64,000 nt of DNA, from positions 868,001 to 932,000 of the forward strand of contig NZ_CP060790.1 of assembly GCF_014489595.1 (NCBI RefSeq). Direction: 5' to 3'. The DNA is from Paenacidovorax monticola (lineage in GTDB: Bacteria > Pseudomonadota > Gammaproteobacteria > Burkholderiales > Burkholderiaceae_C). The notes beneath the pieces are model-generated. The model had not been told where the DNA came from, searched no databases, and saw only the letters and a list, made by a program, of their open reading frames with translations. Below are positions 1 through 3,510 of the stretch, in pieces (positions within the stretch are counted from its first letter, which is position 1; each line of letters begins with the position of its first letter). Position numbers and translations under genes: made by a program.

Positions 1-840
1 CTCCGCCAGCTCGATGGAGGGCCAGCTCATCACGGTCCAGGCCCGCACCCCAGAGGCCCGTGCCGTAAGCCAGGGGAATCCTGCCAGTTCCGCTCGCAGC
101 AAGGGCTTTTGGTTTTGCCACCACTGCGAGAACCTCGCAGCCTGCCGCCCCGAGTGCAGCGCGACGACAACATCAGGTTGTACGGACACAATGGCCTGCT
201 TCAGATCGCCAAACTCGTGCACTTGCCCAGGCACTCCGGCGATATGTCGGCCCATGATCTGGCCGCCGAGCGAGTGCCAGCGGTCTTGGAATGCCTGGAC
301 GAAGTCATAGCCCGACTCGTGCCAGCCGAGAGACAGAAAGGCGCGTGGCCCGCACTGGGCGTGCACCTTGTCCGCAAGCGCAGATGCCATGGCGCAGAGT
401 TCGAGTGTATGGCGGGCGTACGATGCTCCGGTGGCGGACGGCTCGGCCAGGTCGGCTCCCGTGTCGCTGATCCATAGAGGCACCTCGGCCTTCTGGGCCA
501 GCGGTGCGAGCCTCTTCGACAGGAGCGGGGGAATCCAGCCCATCAGCGCATCGACCCTGCGCTGCTGCAGTGCAGACGCGATCACCTTGGCCGGCGCTGA
601 CGGCAGGGAGCCTGCTGACAGCCAAGTGACCTGGACGGCCGCACCCGCCTGCGCCAAGCCCAGTTCCACGCCGCGGGTGTACTCCGCGGCGAGTGCCGGC
701 AGTTTTTGCGATGCGGGGGCGATACCCAGAACGCGCCAGGTGGCGCTAGCGGATGCCAGGGCGGGAACGGATGCCTGGACACCGCTGGCCGCCGCGGCGC
801 CACTGGCCGCCAGAAAATGGCGCCGATGAAGCTCGATCAT
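1..840 (-). CDS. Tat-exported periplasmic substrate-binding protein (partial, runs off left edge)
   Basis: The frame is open from the ATG at 840 to the window edge, giving 280 codons with no stop. The N-terminus has a twin-arginine-like signal (HRRHFLAASG, then an Ala-rich stretch), so export is likely. The remainder (for example WRVLGIAP, YTRGVELGLAQAG, MGWIPPLLSKRLAPLAQKAEVPLWISD) resembles type-1 periplasmic binding proteins of the branched-chain amino acid ABC transporter class. The start codon overlaps the stop of the sulfotransferase-like gene (ATGA), so it is the fourth gene of the collagen-like operon. The ligand is unknown and the C-terminus is not visible. Confidence 0.7.
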   Translation of the reverse strand, partial: MIELHRRHFLAASGAAAASGVQASVPALASASATWRVLGIAPASQKLPALAAEYTRGVELGLAQAGAAVQVTWLSAGSLPSAPAKVIASALQQRRVDALMGWIPPLLSKRLAPLAQKAEVPLWISDTGADLAEPSATGASYARHTLELCAMASALADKVHAQCGPRAFLSLGWHESGYDFVQAFQDRWHSLGGQIMGRHIAGVPGQVHEFGDLKQAIVSVQPDVVVALHSGRQAARFSQWWQNQKPLLRAELAGFPWLTARASGVRAWTVMSWPSIELAE

Positions 841-1862
841 GGCAGGGCCTCCTCGAGGGAATTTGGGGCAGCGGCACGCTGGGCGTGGCGCAGGTTCTGC
901 AATTTTCGATAGTGGGGAGCGATCCATTGCTCTGCAAGGGATTGAAGATGGTCGCTTGCCATGCTGTGTTTCGTCTCCGTGTCCGGAAGATAGGCCTGAT
1001 ATGGGTGCTTGCCGTGCATCGCACAGCGTTCGCGCATGCGGTCCCGGTCCTGCTCGGAGCAGTGCCAGCGCATATGGGGAAGCACCAGCGTCTCGATGGC
1101 AGCGGGCAGCTCGGCATGGTCGAGCAGCAGGGTGCGTTCCGGGACGAACTCCCGGGCCATGGCTGCGTAAATGTCCCCCAGCACGCGCGCGCAGAAAAGG
1201 GCTGCGGGCATGGAGGCCAGCTCGTGGATGCTCAGGCCATCGAGGCATGCCCCCAGCGTGCCGGGCACGAGAAAGAAGGCGCGCTCGCGCATCTGGGACA
1301 CCAGCACCGACAGGGGCTCCCGGGCGAGAAACACCCACCGCGCTTCGGGCCAGGCCTGGGCCACCAGGGCTGCCTTGTCCGTGTTCCAGGCATCGAGCTT
1401 GATGCTGCAGGACTGCAAAGTGGGGCTGGCGCTGTCGCAGCGCTGCGCCCAGGCGCCCGCCCAGGCACGCAGTGCGCGCACGGCCTGGGCTTCGTCCAGC
1501 AGACCGCTGGGCAAGGCATGGCGCAGAAGGAAATCCACCGGAGCGGGCTCCGACAGCTGGAGGTGGTACGGGCTCTGGCCCAACGCCTGTGTGATGAGCG
1601 TGGAGCCGCACCGCGTGACGTGGAAGATCACCAGCGTGGGAGAGAGTCCTGCGCTGGCCTCGTGCCAGGCTAGCAGGTCTTCCAGAGGCGTCTGGCGCCT
1701 GAACGCCAGGTGGAACGGCAGCTTCAGCTGGCTCTGGACGCCATGCTGGAAAAAGGGCTCCAGAAGAGGGGTATCCATCAGGCGCGCCCAGTCCACCATC
1801 ACCCGTCCTTTGGCGATGTAGATCCGGATGGGGCGCCAGCCGCTGAAGTTCAAAGTACCCAT
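837..1862 (-). CDS. sulfotransferase-like protein
   Basis: The 341-residue protein has a P-loop-like PAPS 5'-phosphosulfate motif near residues 80-92 (FHVTRCGSTLITQAL). Further on it has a REPLSVLVSQM segment typical of the 3'-phosphate-binding part of sulfotransferases. Known relatives move sulfate from PAPS to hydroxyl or amine acceptors; the acceptor here is unknown. Its start overlaps the upstream hydroxylase gene by 13 bases and its stop overlaps the downstream binding-protein start as ATGA, so translation is probably coupled. No signal peptide is seen, so it should act in the cytoplasm. The family is fairly clear; a role in modifying the collagen-like protein is inference from gene order. 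Confidence 0.75.
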   Translation of the reverse strand: MGTLNFSGWRPIRIYIAKGRVMVDWARLMDTPLLEPFFQHGVQSQLKLPFHLAFRRQTPLEDLLAWHEASAGLSPTLVIFHVTRCGSTLITQALGQSPYHLQLSEPAPVDFLLRHALPSGLLDEAQAVRALRAWAGAWAQRCDSASPTLQSCSIKLDAWNTDKAALVAQAWPEARWVFLAREPLSVLVSQMRERAFFLVPGTLGACLDGLSIHELASMPAALFCARVLGDIYAAMAREFVPERTLLLDHAELPAAIETLVLPHMRWHCSEQDRDRMRERCAMHGKHPYQAYLPDTETKHSMASDHLQSLAEQWIAPHYRKLQNLRHAQRAAAPNSLEEALP

Positions 1863-2698
1863 TGTTCCATCCAGGAGCGGCGGCCGGCCTTCATGGCCGA
1901 CTCCACGTCCGATGCCTCGAACTGAAATCCGGCGCCGTGGCCCAGTTGCACGGAGGCTTGCACGAACTCGGCCTTGTCGGTGATGGCGCTGAGCCGCCTG
2001 GAGTATTCCTCGTCGGTGCCGACAAAGTCCCTGAACCGCAGGAACTGGCTCCAGGGATCGGTGGCATCGGGCAGGGGATCGCCTGCGTCGCTGGCGCGAA
2101 AGGCTTCCAGCAGGCGTTCGTCCACCCAGGCGTCCGCGACCAGGTGGATGCGTGTCTGGCCGCCACGGTTGCGCACGCGGTGGGGGCGCGATACGTCAAG
2201 GTACCAGCACTCGCCGGCACGCAGGGGGATGCGCTCGCCGTCGACGTGGAAGTAGACATGCTCGCCCGTCTGCAGCGGTACATGCAGCCGCACTTCCCCC
2301 TGGGCCGCGCTGACGCCTGCGTCCGTGTGCTCCATGATCTCGCAGCCAGGCAGCAATTGCATGAGCCGTACGGATTTCCACGGCAGGGCCATCGCCTCCA
2401 GCATGGCGCGCAGGCTGGGGCATTGCTCCAGAGCTGGGGCATCGACGAAGCCCGAAGGGGGCACGTCGATGGGAACGACATCCATGGGCGCCGCCGGGGC
2501 ATGGCGTAGCGCAAGCGCCTGCCAGCCGCCATCATGGCGCCCTTCATTGAAATGCGTGCGCCAGAGGGAAACGGGCAGCGCCTTCGCTTCGGCCAAGGCC
2601 GAAGCGGCATCGAAACGCCAGGGAAGGCGTGCCGACCGCATGCCTTGCACCCGCAGTCCCTCGCACGGCGCTTGGGCGGACAACCCGGGATGCGTCAT
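1850..2698 (-). CDS. aspartyl/asparaginyl beta-hydroxylase-fold 2-oxoglutarate dioxygenase
   Basis: The 282-residue protein carries the Fe(II)/2-oxoglutarate facial triad: H124 and D126 in [10 protein letters not shown]173 in DVSRPHRV, with R183 (TRIHL) placed to bind 2-oxoglutarate. The jelly-roll layout matches the Asp/Asn beta-hydroxylase family. The same fold family includes bacterial L-proline cis-4-hydroxylases, and the roughly 90-residue extension after the core resembles theirs in position. The ATG at 2698 overlaps the stop of the collagen-like gene (ATGA). The longer upstream frame is antisense noise from the repeat region. The substrate is unknown; a Pro, Asp or Asn residue of the upstream gene's product is the obvious candidate, but this is inference. 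Confidence 0.85.
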
Positions 2699-3510
2699 TG
2701 GGAGCAGATCGCGTGAGCGTTGCACGAGGGCGCGACGCCTCGGTAGGGATTGAGGACGCGCACGTTCCAGCCTTGAACGCTGGCCCCGCAAGCACCGCCA
2801 ATCCCGGGATAACTGGCGGACACATAGACCGCATCCGCCTCGATCCCCGCAACATTGCTGCTGGCCTGATACCCCCCGCCCAACACCTTCTCGCCGGCGC
2901 CGCAGCAGGCGGTGGCCGTGCAGGCATCCCCCGCTGCCGTGCCTGCGTTCACGACCGTGTGAGTCAAGACAATCGACGAACCGGCAGGCCCCTGGATGCC
3001 TTGTGGCCCCTGGATGCCCTGGATGCCTTGGGCTCCCGTCGCGCCTGTCGCGCCGGTGGCACCTGTTGGCCCGGGAACGCCGGCGCTGCCTTGCGGGCCG
3101 GTGGCTCCAGGGGTTCCAGAGGTTCCCGTTGCTCCCGTGGGACCCTGGGCCCCCGTGGCACCCTGAGCGCCGGTGGGGCCAGTGGCCCCCGTGGGGCCGG
3201 TTGCTCCAGTAGCGCCAGTCGGCCCCTGTGCCCCAGAGCCCACGCCGGGGGCACATTGCCCCAGGCGTCCGGTGGGGCCGTCAAAGCACAGCAGGCTGTT
3301 GGTGATGGGCGTGCCCGCCAGGCCTGGAACCAGCACTTCGCCGGTGCCTTGCACGCGCAGCCGCTCGTGGTTGGCCTGGTCCTTGACCACGAAGCCTCCT
3401 CCGACAGGCGGCGTGATGGTCACATCCGCCGCGTGGGTGGTGAGCGATGCCAGCGCCAGGCAGGCCTGGCCTGCCCACAGCGACTTGGATGAGAAAGGAG
3501 TGCGTTTCAT
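2695..3510 (-). CDS. secreted collagen-like triple-helix repeat protein
   Basis: Reading from the ATG at 3510, this is a 271-residue protein with a signal peptide ([10 protein letters not shown], hydrophobic core, likely cleavage after THA). A short N-terminal domain is followed by 28 uninterrupted Gly-X-Y triplets (residues 93-176) dominated by [12 protein letters not shown] and GPQ. A C-terminal domain of about 95 residues contains six cysteines. The repeats contain no charged residue and no Asp or Asn, and are rich in Thr and Gln. A TTG start at 3543 is possible, but no good ribosome-binding site marks either start. It is the first large gene of an overlapping operon with a hydroxylase and a sulfotransferase. 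The function is unknown; surface or secreted adhesin-like roles are known for other bacterial collagens. Confidence 0.85.

Follow-up and report, generated by a model that had tools for sequence, protein, structure and literature searches.

A hydroxylase-sulfotransferase operon of Paenacidovorax monticola and a tail-collar protein as its candidate substrate

Which molecule is modified by a hydroxylase and a sulfotransferase whose genes adjoin that of a collagen-like protein? This question is raised by a locus at one edge of a 64,000-nucleotide stretch of Paenacidovorax monticola DNA (contig NZ_CP060790.1, positions 868,001 to 932,000), referred to here as the window. A preliminary description of this stretch had proposed that the enzymes modify the collagen-like product itself, hydroxylating a residue and then sulfating a hydroxyl. 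Five genes, designated COL, HYD, SUL, PBP, and TC, form one operon on the minus strand (Table 1). The overlapping COL-HYD-SUL junctions reported earlier were confirmed, the coordinates giving overlaps of 4 bp (COL/HYD) and 13 bp (HYD/SUL), with a further 4 bp between SUL and PBP. Beyond the window edge the operon continues through PBP into TC, the fifth gene, a continuation that had not been seen in that description. HYD gave one weak match among 50,697 phage records and 25 partial plasmid matches, all below 60% identity and none covering 80% of HYD, and the operon is therefore not evident phage or plasmid cargo.

Table 1. Genes of the operon (positions are those of the window unless prefixed L003)
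Gene	Position	Strand	Product and features
COL	2695-3510	-	271 aa; signal peptide by eye; Gly-X-Y; Pfam Collagen
HYD	1850-2698	-	282 aa; Fe(II)/2-oxoglutarate hydroxylase, Asp/Asn beta-hydroxylase family
SUL	837-1862	-	341 aa; predicted PAPS-type sulfotransferase; motif FHVTRCGSTL
PBP	1..840 in window; whole gene L003:11749-12840	-	Periplasmic-binding-protein-like; crosses window edge
TC	L003:11114-11662 (outside window, next after PBP)	-	182 aa; tail-collar protein, Pfam Collar

Our results support the earlier assignment of both enzymes. HYD matches Pfam Asp_Arg_Hydrox (PF05118) with 68.1 bits (cutoff, 22.6), adopts a double-stranded beta-helix fold, and finds weak relatives among solved structures in sequence searches. 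The dioxygenase site described earlier is intact, as H124, D126, H173, and R183 are invariant in 7/7 aligned sequences, the HYD of the window included; we take the first three to be the His-x-Asp...His metal site and R183 to be the 2-oxoglutarate-binding Arg. The sulfotransferase-like nature of SUL is borne out by its predicted fold, which matches PAPS sulfotransferases and includes the 5'-phosphosulfate loop. Its Sulfotransfer_3 score of 21.0 bits lies below the cutoff of 27, as does that of the relative at L056 (14.0), whereas the relatives at L036 (30.9) and L192 (32.1) exceed it; sequence searches of SUL against solved structures gave only chance-like matches to antibody chains. HYD and SUL adjoin in all 27 loci of a nonexhaustive contig scan built on a single peptide pattern, and in L039, L040, and L220 HYD and a sulfotransferase are fused in one chain. 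Of the 299 family genomes, 75 contain a strong APS kinase (E ≤ 1e-18), compared with 7/7 of those with HYD-SUL, and an APS-kinase match (Pfam-checked in two cases) directly precedes HYD-SUL in all seven Flavobacterium loci of the scan. A strong HYD was also found in 20 additional genomes (hereafter the further genomes), 8 of which showed no SUL by profile. Neither HYD nor SUL has a signal peptide.

The last gene of the operon encodes a protein that matches Pfam Collar (PF07484) with 105.5 bits (cutoff, 24), a family whose bacterial members are often named microcystin-dependent proteins. Collar proteins are common, being found in 67/299 family genomes and in 60/150 Flavobacterium genomes, many of them without HYD, and their distribution nevertheless follows that of HYD. 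Among the 150 Flavobacterium genomes, Collar was present in 28/28 with an uninterrupted HYD versus 32/122 others (p 5e-14), and in the family survey in 7/7 with the two-gene HYD-SUL pair versus 60/292 others (p 2e-5). It was also found in 22/23 genomes of the scan loci (the other four scan genomes are counted in the family survey) and in 19 of the 20 further genomes, one of which, G1017, carries HYD as the end of a 692-codon frame with uncertain start and stand-alone state. HYD and TC share a fetched locus in 8 of these 20. The exceptions with HYD in these two sets were G309 in the scan, a HYD-SUL genome, and G470 among the further genomes, likewise with HYD-SUL. Where HYD is fused or weak, Collar was mostly lacking, as in G258 and G208 of the family survey and in four of six phylum-search genomes that were set apart for their weak or fused HYD (G499, G488, G767, G621, G697, and G833; Collar in 2/6). 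A relatedness-corrected test pointed in the same direction without significance (median p 0.25; 11 independent pairs, of which 2.9 agreed, 0.0 disagreed, and 8.0 tied). The co-occurrence counts suggest that the steadier partner of HYD across two phyla is the tail-collar protein, not COL.

The C-terminal end of TC (...GIYPSRN) points to a candidate site. An Arg-Asn end was found in 51/52 TCs from HYD-bearing loci or genomes versus 19/113 from HYD-less genomes, and among TCs with Arg at the penultimate position, Asn is last in 51/52 (linked or HYD-bearing) versus 19/70 (HYD-less). We spotted this tail by eye before counting it. The further genomes, which were fetched later, served as a check, and at least one TC with this end was found in 19/19 of those with a Collar protein. 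Unlinked TCs in HYD-bearing family genomes had it in only 5/9 cases, and the TCs of the six genomes set apart in 0/5. In an unbiased column scan of pooled TCs a single other column scored slightly ahead of the last residue, and for Flavobacterium alone the last residue was not among the top ten, which indicates that part of the signal reflects TC subfamily. A Tyr in the position of TC aligned with NQRNAQY was considered as a sulfation site and rejected, since the clade A TCs of L034, L046, L047, and L049 have Phe there. No signal peptide is visible in TC, and TC would therefore meet the cytosolic enzymes. We propose that HYD hydroxylates TC, most likely at the C-terminal Asn, that SUL then moves sulfate from PAPS onto the new hydroxyl, and that COL and PBP are clade-specific partners, a reading to which we assign a chance just short of even.

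The proposal that COL is the substrate deserves to be weighed against this. HYD and SUL would then hydroxylate and sulfate COL, at its Thr-rich Y positions or in its Cys-bearing C-terminal domain, before Sec export. COL matches Pfam Collagen with 46.6 bits (cutoff, 27.2), and the Sec-type signal peptide noted earlier is recognizable by eye, although the count of 28 perfect Gly-X-Y triplets should read 29 (aa 93 to 179, uninterrupted). Its C-terminal domain contains a conserved Cys, and orthologs with the same end domains occur at 11 other loci. In clade A (Acidovorax, Comamonas, Diaphorobacter, and Paracidovorax), COL, HYD, SUL, PBP, and TC are all present in 12/12 loci and COL directly precedes HYD in every one; this C-terminal domain was found in 3/150 sampled family genomes, all three with HYD, and in none without it. 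This linkage, together with the predicted sulfotransferase fold, the fusions, and the APS kinase, is what speaks for the earlier proposal, and conserved three-gene co-occurrence holds within clade A. It does not hold more widely. COL is present in 10/27 scan loci, and in the other 17 HYD-SUL loci no collagen-like run was found in the examined flank, which is the very case that the preliminary description had named beforehand as counting against it. The putative triple helix would also offer few target residues. In the longest uninterrupted runs of 12 COLs, Asp/Asn occur at most twice per protein, Lys and Tyr are absent, and Pro occupies the Y position in 13/406 triplets (2 in the COL of the window); with Y-position Pro or Lys in the helix as its mark, maturation of the animal collagen type is not indicated for these 12 proteins. 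Thr at Y in 182/406 triplets could nonetheless accept sulfate. The Sec signal on COL has no counterpart on the enzymes, and with TC as the steadier partner of HYD we regard COL as an unlikely substrate.

A small molecule, a lipid, or a free amino acid as the substrate of HYD and SUL, with TC and COL sharing only their regulation or a surface role, is in our judgment similarly unlikely. The folds close to HYD include L-proline cis-4-hydroxylase and a nucleoside-antibiotic hydroxylase, and TC was not found in the examined flank of the APS kinase-HYD-SUL trio in 7/7 Flavobacterium scan loci. HYD also matches the profile of the lipid hydroxylase LpxO weakly, with a score of 27.2 bits (cutoff, 500) that is too low to identify HYD as LpxO. 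The near-strict genome-level link to Collar and the correlation with the TC tail would, however, be unexpected for enzymes of small molecules. In a purely genomic explanation, HYD, SUL, and TC would have no chemical connection and would co-occur only as members of a single surface-protein island that moves horizontally, with the Arg-Asn end marking a TC lineage. Genes of the GNAT and DUF6916 families do lie beside TC in HYD-less genomes as well (24/55 and 11/55 fetched loci, respectively), and we rejected them as HYD-specific partners on this ground; the nonsignificant pair test also fits such an island. On the other hand, HYD and TC frequently lie apart from each other in Flavobacterium and others and still co-occur, and the Arg-Asn bias is kept in each of the two classes into which TCs were crudely divided by any xNxxP within residues -32 to -17 (25/34 versus 11/82 and 59/62 versus 8/31). 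We consider an island of this kind improbable.

Under the preferred reading, with TC as substrate, the operon would produce surface or fiber proteins, one of them modified in the cytoplasm. COL and PBP would be exported; PBP has a Peripla_BP_6 match just under the cutoff and a Tat-like signal match also under it. COL might join TC in a trimeric assembly, serving as its stalk or anchor, or might itself be a second substrate. A broader pathway in Pseudomonadota and Bacteroidota, in which the C-terminal Asn of tail-collar proteins is beta-hydroxylated and then O-sulfated by way of a dedicated hydroxylase that is in many cases accompanied by APS kinase and a sulfotransferase, seems to us rather doubtful. 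In curacin biosynthesis, sulfotransferase chemistry uses sulfate as the leaving group in a decarboxylative elimination. The putative acceptor in TC adjoins the free alpha-carboxylate, and sulfate could thus act as a leaving group here as well; in this boldest form, decarboxylative elimination could give a C-terminal enamide, or an amide after hydrolysis, and would offer a new way of capping or cross-linking the C-terminus of a protein. Should the preferred reading be correct, a hydroxylation-sulfation pathway would be added to bacterial protein modification, and the tie of a collagen-like protein to such enzymes in one clade would be explained. A specific enzyme partner and a predicted site make the role of the common tail-collar proteins testable. 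Our literature searches, judged from the search results, returned no report of modification of a tail-collar protein.

The proposed system differs from those to which its parts are related. HYD and AspH both belong to the Asp/Asn beta-hydroxylase family (PF05118). AspH lacks the His-x-Asp metal site, and its targets sit in EGF-like domains, whereas HYD is bacterial, has that metal site, contains no TPR domain in its 282 aa, adjoins a sulfotransferase gene, and has a C-terminus as its proposed target. Among the solved folds closest to SUL are TPST1/2 and polyketide sulfotransferase domains (curacin and olefin synthase), which use protein or beta-hydroxyacyl acceptors; SUL shares 12-15% identity with them and is a stand-alone protein with no visible signal peptide. 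A bacterial hydroxylase and a collagen-like protein also come together in Bacillus, where a review discusses a prolyl-4-hydroxylase, reportedly tested on synthetic peptides, together with the glycosylated collagen-like BclA (PMC8968730); the substrate there is prolyl, and the portion of that source considered here mentions no sulfotransferase. The C-terminal helical region of HYD weakly resembles Nif11.

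The genes for the Fe/2OG hydroxylase (HYD, of the Asp/Asn beta-hydroxylase family) and the predicted PAPS-type sulfotransferase (SUL) belong to a conserved module that also includes tail-collar proteins (TC; Pfam Collar, PF07484), and the gene for the secreted collagen-like protein (COL) is a clade-specific member within the same operon. In the 4.68-Mb, single-contig P. monticola genome (the window is G000:C1:868001-932000), this operon occupies the first 3.5 kb of the window on the minus strand and then runs past its edge. COL, HYD, SUL, and a periplasmic-binding-protein-like gene (PBP) overlap successively by 4, 13, and 4 bases, and TC begins 86 bases after the end of PBP, in sequence beyond the window edge. 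COL does contain Gly-X-Y triplets, but 29 of them rather than the 28 of the preliminary description.

Genes of the operon in transcription order (L003, stretch reaching past the window edge)
Gene	Position	Strand	Remark
COL	2695-3510	minus	first gene
HYD	1850-2698	minus	second gene
SUL	837-1862	minus	third gene
PBP	840 to beyond base 1, end at L003:11749	minus	fourth gene; only its start in the window
TC	L003:11114-11662	minus, as PBP	fifth gene; strong Collar domain

Among 299 genomes of the window's family (Comamonadaceae, judging from its named members), seven carry the two-gene HYD-SUL pair (G000, G084, G017, G264, G163, G046, and G034); the remaining HYD matches were mostly LpxO-like and also included a weak one (G208), a fusion in G258, and a fused second copy in G017. 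A non-exhaustive contig scan with the HYD alignment, based on a single peptide pattern, gave 27 loci, and HYD adjoins SUL in all of them. The preliminary description had proposed that HYD and SUL successively modify COL. The three genes are indeed adjacent, in the order COL-HYD-SUL-PBP-TC, in all 10 clade A scan loci (five Acidovorax, four Comamonas, and Paracidovorax citrulli), or 12/12 with the window and G017, but no Gly-X-Y run of at least ten was found in the examined flank of the other 17 scan loci. Ten of these 17 come from Massilia, Janthinobacterium, Ramlibacter, and others, and in most of them TC, GNAT, and DUF6916 genes are close by (TC in 7/10). The other seven, from Flavobacterium, have an APS kinase match immediately ahead of HYD-SUL (Pfam-checked in L056 and L058), and TC is absent from their examined flank. 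CysC, GNAT, and DUF6916 genes also lie convergent to the operon in the four Comamonas and in G017. In two family genomes (L036:1431-4642 and L037:11035-14201; Pfam on L036 only), a second sulfotransferase gene, with the gene for a large DUF4347 surface protein immediately after it, lies beside the tail-collar and HYD-SUL genes.

At the genome level, Collar was found in 67/299 family genomes and in 7/7 with the HYD-SUL pair (p 2e-5); it was not found in G258 (fused HYD) or G208 (weak HYD). It was present in 22 of the 23 genomes of scan loci, the exception being a metagenome-assembled Flavobacterium (G309); the remaining four scan genomes are apparently G084, G264, G046, and G034 of the family survey. 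Within the genus Flavobacterium, 60/150 genomes have Collar and 29/150 have a HYD match, interrupted in one (G469), and all 28 genomes with uninterrupted HYD bear Collar (p 5e-14). The genome with the interrupted gene (G469:C219, L100) is the sole Collar-less one among the 29. In G378, a stop was counted in the HYD search match, yet direct alignment showed none within residues 1-224. Phylum-wide searches of 329 and 247 genomes yielded 20 previously unused genomes, 10 per phylum, whose HYD is strong (E <= 1e-47) and not joined to a sulfotransferase: Collar occurs in 19 (exception, G470), SUL in 12, and HYD plus TC within one fetched locus in 8 (G526, G613, G492, G688, G706, G887, G896, and G1000). 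Collar is present in two of the six genomes whose HYD is weak or fused, which were counted apart. Thus, the HYD-TC association is broader than HYD-SUL and far broader than HYD-COL. As for the supply of PAPS, a strong APS kinase match (E <= 1e-18) occurs in 75/299 family genomes and in 7/7 with the HYD-SUL pair (p 5e-5), an association that is partly built in because CysC sits inside some clusters. A PBP relative (tblastn) follows the tail-collar gene in Flavobacterium genomes both with and without HYD (L085, L087, L089, L090, L093, L104, and L106), so that PBP looks like a tail-collar partner.

One result counts against a TC-centered reading: COL, for its part, is also linked to HYD, its end domain occurring in 3/150 sampled family genomes, all three with HYD. 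Animal-type prolyl or lysyl hydroxylation would find few targets in COL. In the longest runs of 12 COLs (406 triplets), position Y holds Thr 182, Ala 97, Gln 45, and Pro 13 times; these runs contain neither Lys nor Tyr, and Asp/Asn number 0-2 in each protein. COL might still be sulfated on Thr, with no hydroxylation involved, or be modified in its end domain. One review (PMC8968730) describes a Bacillus prolyl-4-hydroxylase active on synthetic peptides and the glycosylation of BclA. A literature search that mostly stopped short of full texts returned no report of sulfation of bacterial collagen-like proteins or of modification of tail-collar proteins. By eye, COL has a Sec signal and none is visible in TC, HYD, or SUL, which places TC in the same compartment as the two enzymes. 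TC as the substrate of HYD and SUL is the most economical reading, and we give it roughly an even chance.

The TC C terminus offers a lead, its terminal Asn being a candidate modification site. The TCs compared came from 12 clade A and 8 clade B loci and from 17 of the 28 HYD-positive Flavobacterium genomes, and, on the HYD-less side (lacking this HYD type, some with LpxO-like matches), from 20/32 Collar-bearing Flavobacterium genomes and 35 loci of 34/60 Collar-bearing family genomes. An Arg-Asn ending is found in 12/12 clade A, 14/14 clade B, and 25/26 HYD-positive Flavobacterium TCs, versus 9/37 in HYD-less Flavobacterium and 10/76 in HYD-less family genomes; TCs at other places in HYD-positive family genomes have it in 5/9. 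In the 19 Collar-bearing genomes with strong HYD from the phylum-wide searches, 33/44 TCs end in Arg-Asn, with at least one in every genome. Six of the 11 exceptions are second TC clusters (G962 and G994), two (G688 and G887) keep the last Asn with Gln ahead of it, and three (in G597, G704, and G718) represent other types of protein or frame. Arg at -2 is frequent in both groups (52/52 on the HYD side and 70/113 HYD-less), and among TCs with this Arg the last residue is Asn in 51/52 versus 19/70. The residue that tracks HYD is the last Asn, which suggests Asn as the modified residue and agrees with the chemistry of the HYD family.

Some results weigh against this reading. In a FastTree phylogeny of 222 sequences with the last 8 residues omitted, 11 independent pairs on supported branches gave on average 2.9 agreements, 0.0 disagreements, and 8.0 ties (median p 0.25); four pairs within Flavobacterium gave 1.6 and 0.0. 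A blind scan of 184 positions placed a single column narrowly ahead of the last residue in the pooled set; in Flavobacterium alone, the last residue fell outside the top ten. We take the outranking column to be a subfamily marker; dividing the TCs by a crude motif chosen to track it left the effect in place in both classes (25/34 versus 11/82 and 59/62 versus 8/31). The scan and split outcomes indicate that the Asn signal is due in part to subfamily history.

Judged by eye, several TCs of HYD-less Flavobacterium (among L101-L120, e.g., L116, L117, and L118) start with Sec-like signal peptides, as seemingly do 0/26 from HYD-positive genomes. In L199:299-6615 (G492; by Pfam) and L192:3552-7620 (G688; by sequence likeness only), genes for PqqD, asparagine-synthase-like, and HPr-kinase-like (below cut-off) proteins and a second sulfotransferase adjoin HYD, SUL, and TC, with Transglut_core3 additionally in L199. 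This set is reminiscent of lasso-peptide machinery, which suggests RiPP-like processing close to these tail-collar genes.
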